Below, one piece after another: positions 254 to 37,753 of a DNA stretch of 46,027 nucleotides. Location of the stretch: positions 1 to 46,027 of IMG/VR virus record IMGVR_UViG_3300022223_000006; one strand, written 5' to 3'. This stretch comes from a virus. The notes beneath the pieces were generated by a model. That model made no database searches. It saw only the letters and a list, made by a program, of their open reading frames with translations, and was not told where the DNA came from. A program made the position numbers and the translations under genes. Within the stretch, counting starts at the first letter, position 1. Each line of letters begins with the position of its first letter.

Positions 254-1911
254 CCCATCAATGTCGTCGGATAGCCTGCCTGAAGGTCTTTATCATCGAA
301 AGAATAATCTATATCATCCAAGGCAATGCTTGCATCTATTTCATCGAGAATGAGGTCTGCACTAAGTTGCGAATAGCCTAAAACGTGAATTGGAAGCTCA
401 TAAGTCGAAAAGCAGTTTTCCTCGTAATTGATAATCAATGCGCTATCCGGTTTGTCCGCTGCAATCGAAGCATAAGAAATCCACGCCTGTTTCATTTCTT
501 CAAGGACTAATCCATAGCAATATCCAATCGCCGCCTGCGTCCATTCAAGCATAAAATCCGGTATTTTCTCATCCACATTGTATGCCTTGCGCCTATCGAA
601 TCCGACAATTTGCGTAGGGCCAACGGCCATAAGTTCATCGCTAAAAGATATGACCGACATAGTTGCATAGCATCCTTCCGTGCTTGCAACTTGCTCCCAT
701 TTGAACGGTTCTGTTGGGTCGTTTGTATAAGCAAAAATCCAGATAGTCCGCTCAAACCATACATAAAGCTCATCCCCGATAAAGTCTGCAGATATAATCC
801 AGTCCTCGGTTGGCGCATCTTTATATGAAGCGGCTTTCCAAATTGCGGGATTATTTATCTCACACCATCTTGCCCTTCGATTATGCGCACCATCCGTTTC
901 GTTTGTCCTGAAAAGAATAATACGATTATGATAAATAAAGATTAGAAGACAGGTATTCATATCATTATCAGGCCCGCCTTCCACAGCCAAATCTATTTGA
1001 AAAGGAACAGGTGTTAGAATACTTCCGGCGCCGTATCTTTGTATCTGGTCTATATAGTTTGTGAAATAGCCAACATCAAGCCAGTTTTGAAGCCAGAAAA
1101 AATTATTATCCTCACCTGTAAATTCGTTCTCTGTTTGCGTACCATCGGCATCACCGTAAATCTCAGCAGGTGTTCCTTGGTCTCGCAAATTTTCACCATC
1201 AAGAAAAGTACCAACAACTGTCGCATTCTTAAAAATAATCCAGCCATCGCCTGTTCCGAGAGGACAAGAGCCGTGGTCAACTATTACCGATTCAACCGTA
1301 CCATAAGCGCCGTTCGTAGCTCCTTCGCAGACATCGTTAGCAACTGGCAGATGATTTTGTGATGCGCCTGGCTTGAAATGGATTTTAAGTCGTGTTACAT
1401 CCTCAAAAGCGTGGCTTGTAGTATTGTATTTATTCACACGCTTGGTATCCATTGCCAAAAGCGTTTCTACATCTCCCTGATAATAGTTGTAAATCCCCAT
1501 TACAGCATTGCCAGGCACACTACTAACAATTCCAGTTGCATCATCAGCAACCCAAGTGGCTACAATCTTGAAAGTTGTTGCTGCCTTTTCTGAAATTACA
1601 AAAGTGCCGTTATAACTGGTCGTTCCGGTTTGAACGACTGTAGCGTCATTAGAAAGACCGTGTGCACTCGATGTTGTTACCGTAACCTTTCCACTTCCTG
1701 CATCTGCAAAATGTGTAATCACCGAGGCAGTTGTAGTCTCGGTTTTAACCATTTTCCCAAACTCTGTATAGCCTTTTCTCTTTTCGAGTACGCCGTGGTA
1801 AATATGCCCGTTACGCAGCTTCTTGAAGGCATCAGCGGGAATTAACCACGGCTCGCGCGCCGTAATTTGCCCCGATTTCAAATCATAAATTGGAAAAGAT
1901 TGAAATGGCAT
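1..1911 (-). CDS. Tail nozzle-like (beta-propeller) structural protein, N-terminal 637 residues
   Basis: The gene starts at 1911 and runs off the left edge. Across the circular join it continues to a stop at 45640, giving a protein of about 681 residues. It lies last in the head-to-tail series after the connectors and fibres. The sequence is beta-rich with short recurring blades such as NRIILFRTNET followed by RRARWCEINNPAIW. That pattern (a strand, then an Arg-rich 'RW...NP..W' turn) is typical of the propeller-like nozzle or stabilisation proteins of podoviruses (T7 gp12, P22 gp10 types). By analogy it would seal the tail below the connector. The family assignment is inferred from pattern and position; a receptor-binding propeller is the main alternative. 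Confidence 0.6.
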   Translation of the reverse strand, partial: MPFQSFPIYDLKSGQITAREPWLIPADAFKKLRNGHIYHGVLEKRKGYTEFGKMVKTETTTASVITHFADAGSGKVTVTTSSAHGLSNDATVVQTGTTSYNGTFVISEKAATTFKIVATWVADDATGIVSSVPGNAVMGIYNYYQGDVETLLAMDTKRVNKYNTTSHAFEDVTRLKIHFKPGASQNHLPVANDVCEGATNGAYGTVESVIVDHGSCPLGTGDGWIIFKNATVVGTFLDGENLRDQGTPAEIYGDADGTQTENEFTGEDNNFFWLQNWLDVGYFTNYIDQIQRYGAGSILTPVPFQIDLAVEGGPDNDMNTCLLIFIYHNRIILFRTNETDGAHNRRARWCEINNPAIWKAASYKDAPTEDWIISADFIGDELYVWFERTIWIFAYTNDPTEPFKWEQVASTEGCYATMSVISFSDELMAVGPTQIVGFDRRKAYNVDEKIPDFMLEWTQAAIGYCYGLVLEEMKQAWISYASIAADKPDSALIINYEENCFSTYELPIHVLGYSQLSADLILDEIDASIALDDIDYSFDDKDLQAGYPTTLMGCRTGYIYKLNDGGSDDGADISFETESGQLNPFVKEGKQACLGWIDFLVDKDELCTFDVDFYLNDESLSYQTKTITCSETGTNRD

Positions 1912-1914
1912 ATC

Positions 1915-2811
1915 TCACCAACCTTTTGCCTCCCAATAAGCTCCTGTTAAGGCACCTGCTCCCCAACTTATTATAAGAGTTGTCGTATTAAGAGTAGTGA
2001 TAACCGACTCCCAACCAACAGAAGCAGTATGTTGTGAGGTAAGAAATCCAGCGACAACTCCGTTAGGAAATGCCACAGCAAACGTAATCGTATCCGATGC
2101 TCCAGTTTTTGCTTTATAGCCTCTTTTTACAATCTCACCATTTGGATAAGTTACAGATTCCTCACCTGCATAAGTAGAAGGTGTCATCAAGCCTGATTTT
2201 AATGCAAGACCATCATCAACATATTTCTTATTGGCAAGTTGGGCATCGGCCACTGGTGCTCCACTTGTAGCAAGTGCGGAAGTATCCGGCAAAGTCGTAA
2301 CGGCGCCTAATGTAATACCATCACTCGTATTGACTTTGGCAATATCTACATTGCCATTACCGGCATTGTTTCGACCTTGAATGTAAGAATTATTTGCTAC
2401 AAGACCTAAAGTAAAGACCGGACTAACAGAGAACGTCTGAGCCAGTGCCCAAGTATTTATCTGGGCTACCAAAAAGGCGATTATCTCCGTTGAAACCGGA
2501 GTCCAAGTAACGGGGCCAATAGCAGTAAGAATATTGAATTGATTATCAGGACTACTATTAGAATCTATCCATAAAGAGCCAAAATCGGCGGAAGTAAAAG
2601 CCGTGCCGTCAATCCTCGTAGAAGGTGCAGCATCCTGAAAAAAACATCGGGCAGAACCTTGTGGATGACGTCCCGTTTGTGTCCCGCCAGTTGTAAAATC
2701 GTGTTCGTTATCAAAGGCAGTCTCCAGAGCAGCATTATTGGCTCTTATATCATCGTCAATATATCGGGCTTTCCTGCCCGCAATAGGCAATCCCTTGTCC
2801 CAAGCACACAT
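1915..2811 (-). CDS. Tail fibre protein with gp53-like C-terminus
   Basis: 298 residues. The middle carries the phage-fibre motif ADAQLANKKYVDDGLALKSG (about residues 188-207), common where fibre shafts meet their tips. The C-terminus is Gly/Thr/beta-rich and ends in YWEAKGW, the 'W.A.G' ending of gp53-like tail-fibre C-terminal domains. The N-terminus has a short 'RYIDDDIRANNAALETAF' segment seen in virion-attachment regions. It overlaps the collagen-like gene upstream by one base at 2811 (TAATG), so the two are probably translationally coupled and assemble together. Likely role: host recognition. Confidence 0.7.
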   Translation of the reverse strand: MCAWDKGLPIAGRKARYIDDDIRANNAALETAFDNEHDFTTGGTQTGRHPQGSARCFFQDAAPSTRIDGTAFTSADFGSLWIDSNSSPDNQFNILTAIGPVTWTPVSTEIIAFLVAQINTWALAQTFSVSPVFTLGLVANNSYIQGRNNAGNGNVDIAKVNTSDGITLGAVTTLPDTSALATSGAPVADAQLANKKYVDDGLALKSGLMTPSTYAGEESVTYPNGEIVKRGYKAKTGASDTITFAVAFPNGVVAGFLTSQHTASVGWESVITTLNTTTLIISWGAGALTGAYWEAKGW

Positions 2812-3521
2812 TATATTTTAACTCCTAAATTCTCTAATGCTCTCTCAAATCGGGCTATTTTATCCAATATAATATTCCAATCGTGTGGTGGTATTCCAGG
2901 TTCACCCTTATCGCCTTGTGAACCAGGAAATCCTTGTATTGATTCGCCCTTTTGACCAGGTTTACCATCTTTACCATCGTGGCCATCTTGACCAGACTCG
3001 CCCTTCAATTCAATATAAAGACCCCAAGAACCATCTGGATTTTGAAATCTCAATTTTGTGCCATCCCATTCGTGTATAGGCATATCACCTTTGTCGCCGT
3101 CATTTCCATCCTTGCCATTTTTGCCATCAACGCCAGCCTTGCCATCAATGCCAGGCTTACCATCGACGCCAGCCTTGCCATCAACGCCAGCCTTGCCATC
3201 CTGACCAGCAATTCCATTTTTGCCGTCCCTGCCAGGTTCACCATTTCTTCCATTTTTACCATCAATACCTGGATTACCAACTAATCCTTTTAAGTTAGTC
3301 CATTGTCCCCAACTTTCATCAGGATTTTCAAAGCGAATTTCCGTTCCTCTCCATTGATGTTTTGGTATATCACCTTTAATTCCTCTGTCTCCTTTCAATC
3401 CTTGTTCTCCCCTTTTGGCTACTTTAATTATTTCGGAACCTATACGGACTATGCCATTATCATCAATGGTAATGGATTTGATTATTTCTTCTTTTGAGCC
3501 GAAATCGTATTGACCGCCCAT
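2811..3521 (-). CDS. Collagen-like fibre protein with two flanking HxW modules
   Basis: 236 residues. The central region is a Gly-X-Y run (GKAGVDGKPGIDGKAGVDGK and similar) that would form a trimeric collagen-like stalk. It is flanked by two copies of a ~30-residue module: GDIPKHQWRGTEIRFENPDE and GDMPIHEWDGTKLRFQNPDG, each followed by 'SWG'. Such modules are common in phage fibres and probably cap or register the trimer. The short DNA repeats at about 3115-3260 are simply this Gly-X-Y coding. The N-terminal beta segment (about 1-45) probably docks on the virion and the C-terminus is helical. Confidence 0.75.
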   Translation of the reverse strand: MGGQYDFGSKEEIIKSITIDDNGIVRIGSEIIKVAKRGEQGLKGDRGIKGDIPKHQWRGTEIRFENPDESWGQWTNLKGLVGNPGIDGKNGRNGEPGRDGKNGIAGQDGKAGVDGKAGVDGKPGIDGKAGVDGKNGKDGNDGDKGDMPIHEWDGTKLRFQNPDGSWGLYIELKGESGQDGHDGKDGKPGQKGESIQGFPGSQGDKGEPGIPPHDWNIILDKIARFERALENLGVKI

Positions 3522-8351: not shown

Positions 8352-11300
8352 TTACAGCACACCACCAGCACCGGCAGTAACTACACCAGCAGAATTTAAG
8401 GGTTGCCACCAGATATGAAAGTTAATCGAGCCGGTAGTTCCAGCATTTGTAGCAATGGTATAACCTATGTCCATACCATTTACGACCACTACATCAAACA
8501 AGCCGCCTGTAATAGTCGTAGATGTATTAGCCCCAGATGCGACAGATGTTCCAGCAGCACCATACACGGCAGTTAAAATATCATTAGTAAGACAGGCGTC
8601 TAATGCCTGTGCCGTGAAAATCGCTGTGGTATTGCCTTCATAACCTAATGCGATTGTCCCATTAGTGCCTACGGTTACAACCGTAGCAGTAACTTCTGCC
8701 AATATCTGTATTCTGCAATTACCAACTACGGCGGCTATCTCGTGTGTTGCGGCTGTATTCCAAGTGGCGCTTGTCATATCAGCCGTTACAACAAAATAGT
8801 TCGGATGATTGTAAGACGGTGAACCAGCTTGTTGTTGTGCCTCTAACCGTTCCAATATCGAACCATCTTTGTTGGGGACTATTGACGTTGTAACAGCATC
8901 GTTATTGGCGCTTTGTATTCCAATATAATTCGATGTCGAATCGCCCATTGCCGGAATCAAATAGCTGCCTTCATCAATGGCATCAACAAAGTAGTTTTCA
9001 ATACACTTTAACGAGCCAGGGTCAAGACCGGTCGCATAGGCATCAGTGTAAAGTATATTATTTACAAGGAAACCAGTGGCAGCAGCAGTCAATTCGATGG
9101 CGTGGACACCGGCAGCGATATTAGTAACTTTGTTACCTTCAATCAGCATATTGGTATTTATCTGGTCGCTTAAAATTCCAGCGGCAGTATAATCACCAAA
9201 GATTCTGTTTTCGATTAGCGAGCATCTATCAACAACACCGCTCGTAATCAGAATTGCTTCAGCAGCGGCAGCGCCGGAAGTTGAGACAAAATCACAATTC
9301 TTTATTATAATTCTGTCTGCGGCAGAGCCTAAACTAATAGCTGCGGTAAACTCAAATCCGCCAGTGTCGGTAAATTCACAACCTTCAAGTGTAACATCGT
9401 CTCCGGTAATATGAACGCCTATCGTTGTATCTGCCGTTGTTGAATAGAATCTGATGTTCTTTATAGTTACATTAGAGGCAGTTACATCTACTGAGGAAGC
9501 GATATTCGTCATTGTAATTGTAGGACGAATACTACCATTTCCGAGACCGATAATAGTTATTCCGGTTGTACTAACGTCAATTTGTGCAGCAGCAAGACTT
9601 TCAGCGTGAGTTGGAGCAACAAAGATAATATCGCCCTTATTGGCAGTACAGTCGCCTATTGCAGCAGCCAAACTTGCTTCCGCTAACGCCCAGGTCGTTC
9701 CGCTATCGGCATCAGAGCCAGTAACGCTGTCAACATAAAAAACATTGCCAACGCCAACACCTGTAGAACCAAGACTTGCCAGAATATCATCAGTTTTTAT
9801 CTGCAAAAACTCCAGCCGCTCGAATACCGAACCATCGCCATTTTCTACGATATTGGCTGATGTAACCAAATTATCCACATCAGTAGGAATGCCTATAATC
9901 CCTGCCAAACTTACAGCACCATCAGTAAGAGCTACACCATCTGAACCTAAGGCATCAACAAGAGACTTATCCGTTCCACAAGGTGTACCAAGTGCAGTAC
10001 TGGAAGCGCCACCAGAAATAAATGTGGCAAGAGAACCAGTTATAGGAGTTACCTTCAAAGTCAACATATCATTGGTAAAGAATTCTCTCCGCATTACCAT
10101 TGCCTTATCATTGGCAGTTAAAGCCTCTGTAAATGCAGAAGCAAGCGTGAATGTACCACTGGCGGTAACATAATTGCTAATATCCCTTATTTCTCCTTCA
10201 GGGGCAGTGCCAGCACCACTGGTGTTATAGGTGCAAATCATTACCCAATCAGTATTGAAATAGTCTTCACCAAACCCGATTAGATTGGCAATTATGGCCG
10301 TAGTGGTAACAGCATTAGTAGAACAATCACCGGTATAGTACAGACCGGTAAGGGCATCTATCCTGTCCCGTATAGCCTGAAGTGAATCAGTGGTATTATT
10401 ATACGAAGTAGTAACTGGGTCTGCCGATGAAGAAAGTATATAAGCAATAACCGATTCCTGTGCAACAGTGTCAGGATAAACATTAGTTCCGCCATCGGCA
10501 GTTTTTGATATATGGTCAAGTTTGGCATCCACAAGAGAAGCTGTTGCACCAGTTCCTAATGCAAGAGCAACAGAGATTGCCTCTAAAGAATCGGTCGTAT
10601 TGTCATAAGTTCCTACTGTAGCAGTCGCTCCAATTCCCATTATTTTGGCAAGTGTAGAATCGTCTTGGACTGTGGCTGGATAAGCATCTGTGCCATCGGC
10701 AACGTAATAGAGCTTTTTCAGAATGTCATCTGCCGAACCTGCTGTAACCGTAGCAATGGCAGGCAAAGCTGGAACACGAACCGCACTTAAATCAATGGCA
10801 TTAGTGCCATAATTTTCAAGGCACATCATCGAACCTGGGTCAAGTGTAGTAGCTGCTGCATTTGTGTACATTGAATTCCCAATACAAATACCTGTTGCCG
10901 CTCCTTGAAATTCAATTGCATATTGACCCGCAGATACATTACTGACGATATTATATCCAATAAGACAATTTGTCGGCACGGCAGCTCCCGCCCAGATACC
11001 AGCCTCTGCAAAAGTACCGTAAATCACATTATTTATTACGGTCGGATTTGCGATTGTGGCGGTAGATAAATCTACAAAGTTGTTGGCATTTGCACCCGTG
11101 CAGTAATACGTGCAATTTGCAATCGTAACATCAGTGGCGGTCGTGCCAATCTGTATACAATCAACAAATTCATCCGTTCCGGCAGTTTCTCCATCGAGGA
11201 AATAGCAGTTGTATATACAGGCGTAATCACCTGCGATTTCAACGTCAATTGCGTGCGTAACTATATTTACCGAAGGAAGAAACCGCAGATTATAGATTTT

Positions 11301-21579: not shown

Positions 21580-21687
21580 CTTTCATTCATAAATCCATTG
21601 TCTCGCAATTTTGCAGAGCGCAACAAATAAGGCCAGAAGCTACTGGCATAGATAAGCAATTCGATAATTCACATCTTAACATATAAA

Positions 21688-21778
21688 CACAAATACGAAT
21701 AAAATGTGAAGTCATCAACAACTAATTTGCGCATTTTCCACATTTTGTTGAAAATATTTTTAGGAAGGGATTTTGGGC
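21688..21778 (-). repeat. Intergenic regulatory-like repeat, copy A
   Basis: About 90 bases, closely matching 22392-22479 (shared core cacaaatacgaataaaa, actaatt, attttgttgaaaatattttt and attttggg). It lies between the late terminator and the first late gene. On the minus strand it offers TTGATG then TATTTG 17 bases later, a weak promoter look. It also contains the inverted repeat ttttccacattttgttgaaaa (imperfect). The 21580-21936 stretch otherwise holds the terminator and promoter annotated here and no convincing gene. Confidence 0.6.
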
Positions 21779-22335: not shown

Positions 22336-22391
22336 AATCTCGGCTGGGTTCCAAGACCAAAAGGAATAAAACCAATATTTCATATACCAAT

Positions 22392-22479
22392 CACAAATAC
22401 GAATAAAAGGTGAAGACGTCAAAGACTAATTCTGCAATTTGCAGATTTTGTTGAAAATATTTTTAGGGATGATTTTGGG
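22392..22479 (-). repeat. Intergenic regulatory-like repeat, copy B
   Basis: Second copy of the 21688-21778 element at roughly 80% identity. On the minus strand it has TTGACG then TATTTG after 17 bases. It also holds the perfect palindrome ctgcaaatTTGCAG-type core (tctgcaatttgcaga, 22431-22445), operator-like and absent from copy A. It lies upstream of the gene at 22147-22335 and overlaps the 3' end of the gene at 22463-22654. Confidence 0.6.
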
Positions 22480-23368: not shown

Positions 23369-23548
23369 TCATAATAAAGCTTTACTGTATTTTATTTTGT
23401 TAGGATTCATAATCAAACTATTGTAATCTCTGAGCTTTGGGCACAAAAGACAAGATTGGCCTTGATAACATTTAGTAGCCTTTTTTTCGCGATTTGGGCA
23501 TTTTTGACAAGGCTCAATAAGTTCAATAATTTTGGATTTTGCTTTCAT
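23369..23548 (-). CDS. Cys-cluster microprotein (59 aa)
   Basis: MKAKSKIIELIEPCQKCPNR, then two more Cys and CLLCPKLRD: CxxC ... C ... C-x2-C, a likely two-knuckle zinc site. The ATG at 23548 follows the first pseudoknot-like leader with GAAAGGTGG as ribosome site. Its translation is probably what that leader controls. Confidence 0.6.
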   Translation of the reverse strand: MKAKSKIIELIEPCQKCPNREKKATKCYQGQSCLLCPKLRDYNSLIMNPNKIKYSKALL

Positions 23549-23570
23549 TTCGCACCACCTTTCATAATAA

Positions 23571-23661
23571 AGCCCTCAGCGGTCAGGACAATCGCTAAAT
23601 TGAACCTTGATATGAGCCGTTGAGGGCTTTTATGTTATTAAAGCGTTAAGCGATTGTCCTG
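23571..23661 (-). ncRNA. Pseudoknot-like leader, member 1
   Basis: Minus strand 5' to 3': A (23649-23661, 13 nt), 20 nt, B (23617-23628, 12 nt), 20 nt, A' (23584-23596), 1 nt, B' (23571-23582). A/A' pair perfectly. B/B' pair except for one A-C on this strand (a G-U on the other). Because the arms interleave, both stems can form only as an H-type pseudoknot with A' and B' adjacent for stacking. The ribosome site of the Cys-cluster gene begins a few bases downstream after TTTATTATGAAAGG. Confidence 0.6.
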
Positions 23662-23672
23662 CTTATTGAGTT

Positions 23673-23987
23673 TTAAGGTATAAAACCAAAAACCATTTTT
23701 CTTTGAAGTCCAAACAATGGCTTATAACCAGCTTCCCAAAGTTGTTTTTCAAAAGAAGGAAAAACATTGTTGCAATTCACAAAATAATATGGCTTATCGA
23801 AGCCATAAAATCTACGAGCTTCTGTGTGTCTTTTCATCTCGGCAGCTAATCTTTTAATTACATTTGTATTTTTTTGAGAGTGAAATCGCTCTCTCGCCCA
23901 AGTTAAAAATTCATCCCAATCTACACAATACGTGGAATTGCGGAAATTTTCTTGGGTCATTGCGATAATTTCTGTTCTGGTTTTCAT
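23673..23987 (-). CDS. Protein of unknown function (104 aa)
   Basis: Begins MKTRTEIIAMTQENFRNSTY, has WDEFLTWARERFHSQK and 'EMKRHTEARRFYGFDKPYYF'. The mixture of acidic and aromatic residues gives no family. The ribosome site AGGACAATCGCT immediately before the ATG is the exact complement of arm A' of the downstream leader (23585-23596). It follows member 2 of the leader family. Confidence 0.55.
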   Translation of the reverse strand: MKTRTEIIAMTQENFRNSTYCVDWDEFLTWARERFHSQKNTNVIKRLAAEMKRHTEARRFYGFDKPYYFVNCNNVFPSFEKQLWEAGYKPLFGLQRKMVFGFIP

Positions 23988-24009
23988 AGCGATTGTCCTT
24001 TCATAATAA

Positions 24010-24093
24010 AGCCCGCCGCAACGGCTCGGAACAGGCTATGTCCAGAATGACCGCCACAGCGGGCTAATGGTCTAATTTTAGTTGTGCCTGTCC
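24010..24093 (-). ncRNA. Pseudoknot-like leader, member 2
   Basis: Minus strand: A (24086-24093), 20 nt, B (24051-24065, 15 nt), 14 nt, A' (24028-24036), 3 nt, B' (24010-24024), then the same TTTATTATGAAAGG tail as member 1. B/B' is 15 consecutive pairs including four G-U wobbles on the minus strand. On the plus strand those four would be C-A or A-C mismatches, so the RNA is minus-sense. A/A' has one bulged base. Confidence 0.65.
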
Positions 24094-24096
24094 AAT

Positions 24097-24264
24097 TTAA
24101 CATTCAATATTTATATCTGACATTAAGCAAACATCAGTCTCGCCTACCAAGTCTGGGCTTATACAATTATCGACACATTCCAGATAAACAACATCATTTT
24201 CAATGCCGAGAACTTTCCATTCAGCACCCCATTCATCAGTTAGTATATCTTTCCGTTTTAACAT
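24097..24264 (-). CDS. Small protein (55 aa), acidic beta-rich
   Basis: Start taken at 24264 (MLKRKDILTDEWGAEWKVLG); the longer frame to 24369 overlaps the upstream gene. 'VVYLECVDNCISPDLVGETD' follows. The plan is a short SH3-like barrel as in many phage 'control of expression' microproteins; not identified. Confidence 0.5.
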   Translation of the reverse strand: MLKRKDILTDEWGAEWKVLGIENDVVYLECVDNCISPDLVGETDVCLMSDINIEC

Positions 24265-24307: not shown

Positions 24308-24496
24308 CTACTCCTCTGGAATGAAGTCGTAGAAAGCCCAAGGTGTTCGCAAGAAACTTTTACTCCCAACTTGGCAAATCATATCTACTGTGCCAGGTTC
24401 GTAATATCCCCGGCGTTCCAAATACTCGATAGCATCTTCTTTGGAAATTTCACGAGCTATAGCATTTGGCTCATTAAAAGTTTTTTCGATTTTCAT
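24308..24496 (-). CDS. Small acidic protein (62 aa)
   Basis: MKIEKTFNEPNAIAREISKE, a helix (DAIEYLERRGYY), then a beta tail. It is first in its operon after the promoter at 24548-24575. Its ribosome site GGAACAGGCT (24497-24506) is the exact complement of arm A' in leader member 2 (24028-24037), about 470 bases downstream. Function unknown. Confidence 0.55.
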   Translation of the reverse strand: MKIEKTFNEPNAIAREISKEDAIEYLERRGYYEPGTVDMICQVGSKSFLRTPWAFYDFIPEE

Positions 24497-24547
24497 AGCC
24501 TGTTCCTTTCATTTGAGTTTTGAATTTGTTTTATCTTATTATCGACC

Positions 24548-24575
24548 ATTGTATCAAATATCCTTAATATGTCAA
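24548..24575 (-). promoter_or_regulatory. Strong sigma70-like promoter
   Basis: Minus strand: TTGACA (24570-24575), 16-base spacer, TACAAT (24548-24553). Perfect -35 and 5/6 -10. It should start transcription near 24541, serving the genes from 24496 downward. Confidence 0.75.
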
Positions 24576-24827: not shown

Positions 24828-24986
24828 CTAACAAGGCAAATGTACGCCACAATGAAATTTGCCACAAATTTTGCAAATTTTTGTATAAAGCGGAGTTTTT
24901 CGTAAACAAGGACTTTTTTTATTATTAATCCAAAAACAACACGCCTTTCTTTTGGACCAGCATAAATATTTTTCTTCTTCTGTCAT
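24828..24986 (-). CDS. Cys-rich microprotein (52 aa)
   Basis: MTEEEKYLCWSKRKACCFWI and then KICKICGKFHCGVHLPC: eight cysteines with a CxxC core, consistent with a small zinc-binding fold. AAGGATG lies six bases upstream of the ATG at 24986, so the gene is likely real. It follows the hairpin at 25003-25038. Confidence 0.55.
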   Translation of the reverse strand: MTEEEKYLCWSKRKACCFWINNKKSPCLRKTPLYTKICKICGKFHCGVHLPC

Positions 24987-25002
24987 ATCATCCTTGATTT
25001 AT

Positions 25003-25038
25003 AGATGGGCGGCTAATACCCGTTTCAACCGCCCATCT
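25003..25038 (-). ncRNA. Hairpin leader
   Basis: AGATGGGCGG (minus, 25029-25038) pairs perfectly with CCGCCCATCT (25003-25012) across a 16-base loop. It ends 17 bases before the ATG at 24986. The GGCGG/CCGCC core recurs in the other leaders. Between here and the 30-residue gene nothing else is apparent. Confidence 0.5.
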
Positions 25039-25115
25039 GCCTGTTTTTACCTTCAATTGAGATATATATCTTTTACTTCATTGGCAATTCCCTTTCAAAA
25101 TATTATTATTGTTTC

Positions 25116-35339: not shown

Positions 35340-36065
35340 TTTTTGTCTTTTCTAAAGATTTATGATTCCTGGCGGCAAAGGCACGAACAAGCCTGCGTGA
35401 AAATTTAAGTTCTAACCCAATTCCCGTTTCATCGTTTTTTGCCGCCGTCTAATATTCCGTCCCTATCTTGGCCTTCAGGATATTTCAAGACACAGCATCT
35501 GGATAATAAACTTTGTCAGATAACTGGTTTTTTTCTGCCGTTTATGTACCAAGCGCAGAATAACTAAATTCTTTCTCTATTTATCAAATTTTCAAAGGTA
35601 CTGGTGGCGGAATGTTATGTTGCCTGTCCCCTGGGGACTCCCGCTGCGACCGCCAACTCAACCGCCGCCAACACCGAACGCTCAATAAAGAAATTGGGGC
35701 CAAGTCTTCCCTGACCCCAATTCTTAGGAGGAGGGGGGGCTTAATAATGGGCGGCTTTGCTCACTCCGGCGCACTCTCACATGAGTTTGGAGGCCCAGCC
35801 GCCCTGCGCGTAAGTTTCTAAAGATGAGCCTGCCGATTGATTTATTGAGAAAGGATTATCTGCTGTTTTCTACAGACGAAAGGAGAGAATCGACAGGCTC
35901 TCGGAGGCTTGAAAAAGGTGGATAGCGGGCAGGATTTTTACCTGCTTGATTGCCTTTTGTGCGTAGCCCCAATTGGTCTGACCTGCAATCTTACGCCATC
36001 AGCGTTTCAACACACGCCGCCGCCATCCATAAATTCTATGAATTTGTAAAAGAGCAAAATATTCT
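35340..36065 (-). ncRNA. Gene-free 0.7-kb block of nested inverted repeats
   Basis: No credible ORF on either strand. Long pairings (plus-strand arms): 35371-35379/35438-35446 (ggcggcaaa); 35626-35631/35633-35638 (gtcccc/ggggac); 35692-35699/35715-35722 (aattgggg); 35749-35756/35797-35804 (gggcggct); 35826-35838/35888-35900 (13 bp, one U-G on minus); 35920-35928/36020-36028 (one G-U on minus). The wobble pattern points to minus-strand RNA. Could be one large structured RNA or a row of separate elements. Confidence 0.5.
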
Positions 36066-36215: not shown

Positions 36216-36233
36216 ATTTTTATCTCTAATTTC

Positions 36234-36300
36234 TTTAGCCTCGGCCAGTGGCGTCCCTGCCCCTGGGTCATCCTTAACCTACTACTGGCCGAAAGCTAAA
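36234..36300 (-). ncRNA. Long-stem hairpin leader
   Basis: Arms TTTAGC + CGGCCAGT pair with ACTGGCCG + GCTAAA (36284-36300 with 36234-36249 on the plus map), 14 bp with a small internal loop. The apex is about 34 nt with a CCC/GGG-rich element. It ends about 20 bases before the ATG at 36215. Confidence 0.55.
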
Positions 36301-36619: not shown

Positions 36620-37429
36620 ATGTTTTACGCCCTGTTACATCACAGGGCAAGGAAGCCAATCAAAGAAGCCATCGAAGAATGGCTAATCGATATAAATAAC
36701 CTCGCTTACAATACACAAAGGTATTACAAAAAAGCCATTTTCAACTTCACTATTGATTTGCCAAAGAAATATATCTCACAAATAACATCGGCAGATTTGC
36801 TCAAACACTTAAATAAATTTCGCTGGGAAAACCATAAAGCATCGACTACTAACACACAACTTATGGCCTTAAAATCGTTTTTTCACTACCTTTCGGACAA
36901 TTATGGTATTGAAAATATTGCTCTGCCAATAAAAAAATACAAAGAAGAACTGCCATATCAGCCCTTTATCAACCACGAACAATACCTTAAAATCCTTGAA
37001 TCTACCACTCAAAGAGAATCTGATATAATCAAGATGTTGGCTAATACCGGCTTGCGATGTTCAGAACTTGCCGGACTCAAACCGGAAAATATCAACCCTA
37101 ACTTATCAAGTATCACCATTCAAGGCAAAGGCGGCAAGGTTCGGACTATACCTTGCAACCAAACGGTTCGGGAGATTCTATCCCGCTCTATTAACTTTCC
37201 AAAGAATCGTAAAAGTATATATAACCATTGCAAAATGGCGGCAAAGAGAATAGGTTTGGAATTATCACCGCATCAACTTCGCCGGTTTTTCGCCACCGAA
37301 CTTCTACACAATGGAATTTCCCTTCTAATAATTTCTCGACTTCTTGGGCACTCGTCTGTTCGAACCACCGAGTTGTATCTTCATTTGGATTCATCTTATT
37401 TACAAGGTGTTACTGATGTTCTGGATTGA
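36620..37429 (+). CDS. int: Tyrosine recombinase/integrase
   Basis: 269 residues. A SAM-like core-binding domain (IEEWLIDINNLAYNTQRYYK, then VMALK-type helix LMALKSFFHYLSDN) precedes the catalytic domain. Active-site residues are complete: R146 (ANTGLRCSELAGLK), K173 (GGKVRTIP), H218 and R221 (SPHQLRRFFAT), H244 (RLLGHSSVRTT) and Y253 (ELYLH). Length is typical of a small XerC/D-like phage integrase. No weak ribosome site stands out (AGAAAGATTACTTAATATCTT). No excisionase or att site was recognised. It is the only sizeable plus-strand gene. Confidence 0.9.
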   Translation: MFYALLHHRARKPIKEAIEEWLIDINNLAYNTQRYYKKAIFNFTIDLPKKYISQITSADLLKHLNKFRWENHKASTTNTQLMALKSFFHYLSDNYGIENIALPIKKYKEELPYQPFINHEQYLKILESTTQRESDIIKMLANTGLRCSELAGLKPENINPNLSSITIQGKGGKVRTIPCNQTVREILSRSINFPKNRKSIYNHCKMAAKRIGLELSPHQLRRFFATELLHNGISLLIISRLLGHSSVRTTELYLHLDSSYLQGVTDVLD

Positions 37430-37551
37430 ACTTTGAACTTTTTGGTCTTTATATAGCTACCTTTGCCGCAACGATAACAAGTTATCCAAGTAAAACTTCT
37501 ATTGCTGGCAATAACTTCAGTATCATCTGATTTACATTTTGGACAAAGCAT
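37396..37551 (-). CDS. Zinc-ribbon microprotein antisense to the int 3' end
   Basis: 51 residues: MLCPKCKSDDTEVIASNRSF, then ITCYRCGKGSYIK, two CxxC knuckles. Its last codons overlap the end of the integrase on the opposite strand. It follows a 39-codon leader ORF by four bases and is driven by the promoter at 37725-37753. Such tiny zinc ribbons can be transcription regulators; not shown here. Confidence 0.6.
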   Translation of the reverse strand: MLCPKCKSDDTEVIASNRSFTWITCYRCGKGSYIKTKKFKVQSRTSVTPCK

Positions 37552-37555
37552 ATTC

Positions 37556-37675
37556 TTATCTCAATAAAAAAGGCAAAACGGGAGCAGCAATGCCGATGAA
37601 AGCACAGGATACTCCCGCTCGCCATTTTTTTAGGATTATATTTGAAGTTTTTGGAGTCTTGGTTATCATCGGCAT
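37556..37675 (-). CDS. Possible leader ORF (39 aa)
   Basis: AGGAG eight bases before an ATG at 37675, then MPMITKTPKTSNIILKKWRA followed by a hydrophobic, Ala/Ile/Pro-rich tail ending LPFLLR. The start codon and flanking bases form arm A of the third pseudoknot-like element. A leader peptide coupled to the zinc-ribbon gene is possible. Confidence 0.4.
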   Translation of the reverse strand: MPMITKTPKTSNIILKKWRAGVSCAFIGIAAPVLPFLLR

Positions 37676-37679
37676 TGCT
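37572..37679 (-). ncRNA. Pseudoknot-like leader, member 3
   Basis: Minus strand: A (37666-37679, 14 nt), 42 nt, B (37612-37623), 12 nt, A' (37586-37599), 1 nt, B' (37572-37584). A/A' is a perfect 14-bp match. B/B' is CGGGAG/CTCCCG plus GGCGAG pairing with TTTTGCC through G-U and one bulge. Same interleaved order and A'-B' adjacency as members 1 and 2. Arm A carries the start codon of the leader ORF, so A-A' pairing would hide it. Confidence 0.6.
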
Positions 37680-37724: not shown

Positions 37725-37753
37725 ATTATACCCGATGGACTTTAGAAAGTCAA
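37725..37753 (-). promoter_or_regulatory. Very strong sigma70-like promoter, antisense to int
   Basis: TTGACT (37748-37753), 17-base spacer, TATAAT (37725-37730) on the minus strand. It directs transcription through leader member 3, the zinc-ribbon gene and the antisense of int. With no terminator seen before 36512, it could also reach the early operon. Confidence 0.8.

Follow-up and report, generated by a model that had tools for sequence, protein, structure and literature searches.

Interlocked leaders of one plan and unrelated sequence before phage genes: a candidate attenuator with a terminator-like stem

Introduction

The leaders of T4 gene 32 and rpsO and the preQ1 and SAM-II riboswitches are H-type leaders, in which two stems follow the order A-B-A'-B' before the ribosome site and a short connector joins B to A'. 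Leaders that control transcription, such as those of pT181, pIP501 and P4 CI, hold a terminator that forms or fails to form according to an upstream segment, and there terminator and antiterminator compete for one arm. The phage leaders described here have the A-B-A'-B' order of the H-type leaders, but B and A' are 10-20 nt apart in most of them, A' and B' abut, the stems measure 8-22 bp and no loop bases are conserved. Unlike the stems of the pT181, pIP501 and P4 CI attenuators, theirs have no arm in common and are only interlocked.

The c4 antisense RNA of P1 and P7 (RF01695) resembles these elements in belonging to an antirepressor operon leader, in its two pairs of short complementary segments and in a target just before the ribosome site. 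Its order, however, is the nested b'-a'-a-b, its segments are 7-8 nt long within a structured 77-nt RNA, and its target segments lie 22 nt apart; this topology rules out membership of the c4 family, and the Rfam C4 model found no match. In Gifsy-1, IsrK is a phage leader with a terminator, a small ORF and an antirepressor, and its target in trans is its own read-through mRNA (PMC4825925). It is like the present elements in its own promoter, terminator, small ORF, downstream antirepressor and alternative structures at a start site, and unlike them in acting in trans, in being a single prophage locus and in a pairing that is not interlocked, with no pseudoknot mentioned (PMC4825925). Leader pseudoknots can control translation, as in the type I toxin mRNAs timP and tisB (PMC11228461); the timP structure differs from those below in its 7-bp pairing between two stem-loops and its conservation within enterobacteria, and a U-tract attenuator is not reported for it (PMC11228461). 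Rfam gave no match at the gathering threshold and none of relevance at relaxed thresholds, in line with the remark of an earlier note on this DNA that no named phage element with this plan is known.

Results

Three interlocked leaders on one strand of a phage genome

The DNA analysed here (the window) is a 46,027-base virus record from IMG/VR that carries a P22-like portal, terminase, RecT and integrase. ORFs and promoters were called mechanically. A distant blastn search against known phages matched no cultured phage DNA to the regions of interest. Two of the three leaders, members 2 and 1, lie in that order in one minus-strand operon:

24548-24575, minus strand: sigma-70-like promoter TTGACA-16-TACAAT with TG before the -10, 11/12 matches, heading the operon
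24494-24506, minus strand: start region GGAACAGGCTATG of the 62-aa ORF, a 13-nt perfect complement of the member 2 A' region
24308-24496, minus strand: 62-aa ORF, the first gene past the promoter, no family match
24086-24093, minus strand: member 2 arm A, a degenerate copy of the start region at 24506-24494, immediately preceded by a stop codon
24050-24065, minus strand: member 2 arm B, from the interlocked-stem scan
24028-24040, minus strand: member 2 arm A' with flank, CATAGCCTGTTCC (paired part 24036-24029), antisense of the upstream start region
24010-24025, minus strand: member 2 arm B', then TTTATTAT, from the interlocked-stem scan
23984-24103, minus strand: putative 39-codon ORF through member 2, its start overlapping the upstream stop and its stop overlapping the start of the 104-aa ORF
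23987-23999, minus strand: start region AGGACAATCGCTA of the 104-aa ORF, a 13-nt perfect complement of member 1 A'
23673-23987, minus strand: 104-aa ORF, 3' of member 2, no family match
23649-23661, minus strand: member 1 arm A, a 12-nt copy of the 104-aa ORF start region without its start codon, about 11 nt past the stop of that ORF
23617-23630, minus strand: member 1 arm B, from the interlocked-stem scan
23584-23597, minus strand: member 1 arm A' (paired part 23596-23584), antisense both to arm A and to the start region of the 104-aa ORF
23569-23582, minus strand: member 1 arm B', then ATTATGAAAGG, from the interlocked-stem scan
23369-23548, minus strand: 59-aa cysteine-rich ORF, 3' of member 1

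Member 3 lies elsewhere on the same strand, behind a promoter of its own:

37725-37753, minus strand: promoter TTGACT-17-TATAAT of member 3
37556-37675, minus strand: putative 39-aa leader ORF MPMITKTPKTSNIILKKWRAGVSCAFIGIAAPVLPFLLR with an AGGAG Shine-Dalgarno sequence, spanning member 3
37666-37679, minus strand: member 3 arm A, including the start codon of the leader ORF
about 37610-37630, minus strand: member 3 arm B, from the helix scan
37586-37599, minus strand: member 3 arm A', from the helix scan
37566-37584, minus strand: member 3 arm B' with a T6 tract, from the helix scan
37397-37551, minus strand: zinc-ribbon-like small ORF, 3' of member 3, every Pfam match under the cut-off

The 39-aa leader ORF has no family match; its predicted product has a hydrophobic C-terminal half and is the only such small ORF product. 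A transcript through member 3 would enter the 3' end of the plus-strand integrase gene antisense (37397-37551 against 36620-37429).

The earlier note had described three minus-strand leaders of the order A-B-A'-B', and all three are present. In member 1, described with 13- and 12-bp stems and two 20-nt loops, A:A' has 13 perfect pairs, B:B' pairs at 13/14 positions with one A-C on the minus strand, and the loops are 18/20/1. In member 2, described as an 8-bp stem with one bulge and a 15-bp stem, A:A' has 8 pairs (one G-U), B:B' has 16 pairs, five of them G-U and none A-C, and the loops are 20/13/3. The 14-bp stem of member 3 is perfect; its second stem, with B at about 37630-37612, is interrupted, and its loops are about 35/12/1.

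When both strands were scanned for helices, the interlocked score was 65 for member 1 and 63.5 for member 3, far above the best value (54) from 12 Markov shuffles of the window as a whole. With loops of up to 45 nt allowed, the members were the top three minus-strand matches (63, 60.5 and 54, member 2 third), and their arms rank among the strongest stems of the strand. By a rough Dirks-Pierce-like energy, the pseudoknot is favoured over the nested minimum free energy (MFE) fold by 10.5, 3.9 and 4.9 kcal/mol in members 1, 2 and 3; as a pseudoknot, member 2 is the weakest.

The members have no mutually alignable sequence. Members 1 and 2 do hold common duplicated sequence, namely a start-region copy and a ribosome-site tail, which is present as claimed but 18 nt long (GGGCTTTATTATGAAAGG) rather than 14. 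A search with the tail pattern GGCTTTATTATGAAAGG matched two unrelated contigs, both without interlocked structure. The claim of unrelated stem sequences stands in that the plan recurs with unrelated sequence, but has to be qualified for member 1, whose arm A copies the region where translation of the gene before it starts.

Leaders of the same plan in other phages

Terminase searches found two further contigs, L002 (4 kb) and L003 (a 31-kb record). By tblastn, what L003 has in common with the window is both terminase subunits, plus one long protein that matches in part. It carries two leaders of interlocked plan, 21 and 23 nt 5' of divergent early ORFs, each the best match of its strand; the nested-fold z-score of the plus-strand element is ordinary (-0.61). 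Relatives of the L003 replication-protein-O gene comprised 62 loci. One homologue, in contig L018, is directly preceded by the same plan, and L056 has an interlocked leader 5' of an antirepressor (ANT domain) gene. Coordinates of the L003 and L018 elements are as follows:

L003, 1553-1456, minus strand: leader, score 66.5, loops 20/11/11
L003, 2116-2205, plus strand: leader 5' of the replication-protein-O gene (Pfam PF04492), score 55, loops 21/11/0
L018, 5941-6066: leader directly 5' of a replication-protein-O homologue (46% identity), unrelated sequence, score 71, loops 18/17/11
L018, 1865-1966: leader 5' of an IS605 OrfB/TnpB-like gene, score 67, loops 18/16/0

At 1865-3090 of this phage contig, the IS605 OrfB/TnpB-like gene comes with an interlocked leader and a strong promoter of its own.

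Seven more replication-protein-O homologues (L014, L015, L016, L017, L019, L067 and L078), on inspection, lack a comparable element, so the element comes and goes. Searches through relatives of the 104-aa product, the integrase (in genomes), the portal and a DUF5131-like protein, and through the terminase in genome contigs, yielded no homologous leader. As no close homologous leader was found in the viral and genome collections, there is no covariation between close homologues. The earlier note had held that structure is kept while sequence drifts: recurrence before genes and an excess of G-U over A-C pairs (below) support this in part, but most replication homologues lack the element.

We chose a core set of eight elements after looking at the matches: members 1-3 and, as the clearest cases outside the window, two from L003, two from L018 and one from L056. 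Weaker candidates in L055, L046 and L073 were left out as their nested folds are more stable. A match in L072 was kept out for its mirrored loop lengths; these very strong interlocked repeats (9500-9601, score 73.5) lie 15 nt 5' of a 213-aa ORF.

The core elements agree with the H-type pseudoknot proposed in the earlier note in their interlocked order and in that both stems are able to form, but their geometry is not the classical one. The short connector is that between A' and B' (0-3 nt in the members), and B and A' are 10-20 nt apart in seven core cases (1 nt in L056), a distance at odds with classical coaxial stacking. The pseudoknot beats the nested MFE by 3.9-12.6 kcal/mol in the eight, with similar gains about as common in shuffled leaders. 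Shuffled leaders often gain 4-5 kcal/mol, so pseudoknot energy by itself is not evidence; as a genome-wide detector it was uninformative, and overall it failed to tell real leaders from shuffles.

Stem B:B' is terminator-like

In every one of the eight core cases a U-tract continues from B', which gives B:B' the look of an intrinsic terminator. Of the 8 nt that follow the final G-C pair of B', 5-7 are T in each element (mean 6.0, background 2.15), a mean reached by none of 20,000 random sets of eight; in members 1 and 2 the U-tract is imperfect (TTTATTAT). A stem containing G+C and followed at once by a U-tract, as in intrinsic terminators, is thus found in 8/8. The loop of B:B', 24-46 nt in seven cases and 11 nt in L056, is longer than the about 3-8 nt of a typical terminator. 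A sigma-70 promoter with 11-12/12 matches lies 6-47 nt upstream of A in four of the eight, and none of 1,200 random positions had a promoter match of at least 11. Directly upstream of members 1 and 2 no promoter was found.

A strong promoter, a terminator-like end, a small upstream ORF and a downstream antirepressor or replication gene are also what a trans-acting leader RNA of the P1 c4 or Gifsy-1 IsrK kind would have, IsrK being the documented precedent (PMC4825925). Short RNAs that end at B', or are processed, would then pair their arms with another copy of the leader, A and B with A' and B', giving self-specific control of replication or antirepressor genes; if specificity changed rapidly, the lack of relation among the stem sequences would be accounted for. 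We regard this as rather unlikely, given that c4 is nested with targets of 7-8 nt and 22 nt between them, whereas here the order is interlocked and pairing in cis is strong, that a promoter is missing just 5' of members 1 and 2, and that the Rfam C4 model found nothing.

A' is antisense to a translation start

A start codon linked to a Shine-Dalgarno sequence lies within arm A in 3/8 core elements (member 3, the L003 minus-strand leader and the first L018 leader), compared with a background rate of 0.10. In members 1 and 2 it lacks a start codon, yet copies the start region of the preceding gene, so that A is a start codon or a start-region copy in 5/8. A' in members 1-3 is complementary to an upstream translation start over 13-14 nt, which for member 3 is that of the 39-aa leader ORF. 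For member 1, A' is a perfect complement over 13 nt of AGGACAATCGCTA at 23999-23987 (104-aa ORF), 390 nt away; for member 2, of GGAACAGGCTATG at 24506-24494 (62-aa ORF), 456 nt away. We scanned the 122 Shine-Dalgarno-bearing minus-strand starts of the window (ORFs of at least 35 codons) for a complement 60-700 nt downstream. Only the two starts answered by A' of members 1 and 2 had one of at least 11 nt (2/122), compared with 1/2,440 shuffled trials; a wider start segment adds the start of the member 3 leader ORF.

A downstream segment complementary to a start region, as found for members 1-3, is a feature of long-distance anti-Shine-Dalgarno pairing, which is established in type I toxin mRNAs (PMC6733600). 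Such mRNAs encode a small hydrophobic toxin opposed by an antisense antitoxin RNA; hydrophobic character is here confined to the C-terminal half of the member 3 leader ORF product. A' might therefore fold back as a downstream anti-start element that silences the preceding ORF, with A as a local decoy and B:B' fixing or ending the transcript. The 13-nt perfect complements to the 62-aa and 104-aa ORF starts and the complement to the member 3 leader ORF start speak for such silencing. Nevertheless, no comparable far start site was found outside the window, and in member 1 A' pairs no less well with the nearby copy A than with the distant start, which would spare the upstream gene; we regard silencing by fold-back as unlikely. 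It is more improbable still that the stems serve RNA processing or stability, protecting the 5' end of the downstream message or serving as RNase III sites like those between T7 early genes: the intercistronic position and long helices would suit this, but the U-tracts, promoters, anti-start arms and interlocked order would be left unexplained.

A and B are separated by at least 17 nt in all 11 listed elements, and hence a ribosome on A would leave B free. An HDV-like ribozyme was considered and rejected, since this connector does not fit one.

Background rates and strand bias

The background set comprised 61 non-redundant phage contigs (980 kb, 1,692 leaders), including the window and its relatives. 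At a score of at least 54, the forward plan occurred in 8 leaders, compared with 0.25 per set in dinucleotide shuffles. At the same threshold, mirrored loop order gave 3 and the antisense strand 3 (one of them member 2 itself), and the excess outside the core phages is therefore modest.

Natural DNA thus exceeds shuffles in interlocked repeats for the mirrored and antisense controls too, and members 1 and 2 hold duplicated sequence in common (the 18-nt tail and the start copy). Both would be expected if the elements had no common function, being inverted repeats without relation to one another and remnants of local duplication that the eye had singled out in AT-rich leaders. We consider this very unlikely, because the strongest stems, U-tract, promoter and anti-start arm occur jointly and the plan recurs in independent phages.

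On the sense strand, the 11 listed elements contain 285 Watson-Crick, 41 G-U and 4 A-C pairs, under a scoring that favoured G-U. A symmetric re-scan gave G-U:A-C ratios, for cleanly recovered elements, of 3:0 (L003 minus strand), 5:1 (L055), 5:0 (L056), 6:3 (first L018 leader), 3:1 (member 3) and 4:2 (L046), with G-U and A-C about even in random matches. This lean towards G-U points to an RNA of the sense strand.

Discussion

We propose that the element acts in cis as a leader attenuator, with a ribosome-gated stem A:A' and a terminator-like stem B:B' that interlock, a reading to which we give a probability of roughly 45%. Arm A, a translation start or a copy of one, would lie just past a promoter or a stop codon and be occupied by a ribosome that is initiating or, in members 1 and 2, finishing the upstream ORF. 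A', placed in the loop of B:B' directly 5' of B', would pair with A only when A is free of ribosomes, and would in this way read whether A is free. B:B' and its U-tract would act as an intrinsic-terminator-like stem just 5' of the Shine-Dalgarno sequence of the downstream gene. Owing to the order A-B-A'-B', the two stems would be interlocked and not compete for bases; A:A', once formed, would alter the ease with which B:B' zips up behind RNA polymerase, and that it hinders B:B' is our guess at the sign of the effect. The start or finish of the upstream ORF would thereby govern either read-through to the downstream early gene or the translation of that gene.

As the plan recurs with unrelated sequence in at least three other phages, before replication, antirepressor and other genes, the elements have, judging from sequence, the look of a phage RNA switch of a kind not recognised before. 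That it marks a widespread class of phage attenuator, with sensor and terminator stems interlocked without common bases and gated by a ribosome on a real or decoy start mirrored antisense in the terminator loop, we find doubtful. RNA families defined by sequence miss elements that keep their architecture while every base changes. If confirmed, the attenuator would represent a leader-control design new to the early and lysis-lysogeny genes of phages. It also raises a physical question: does a preformed hairpin whose loop holds the 5' arm of a terminator block or help intrinsic termination?

The minus strand of the window has further structured regions. At 24986-25039, a simple strong hairpin (AGATGGGCGG...CCGCCCATCT) lies about 20 nt 5' of a small ORF, a nested counterpart of the interlocked leaders in the same region. 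At 36230-36300, a long hairpin leader (TTTAGCTTTCGGCCAGT...ACTGGCCGAGGCTAAAG, z -3.74) stands just 5' of a small ORF starting at about 36222. The roughly 700 nt at 35370-36065 have no convincing ORF and no Rfam family but several long stems (z -4.05 against shuffles), and may be a large structured phage RNA. Two non-coding repeats of about 90 nt (21685-21776 and 22389-22479 of the window), 704 nt apart and 83-86% identical, are possibly promoters or regulatory sites.
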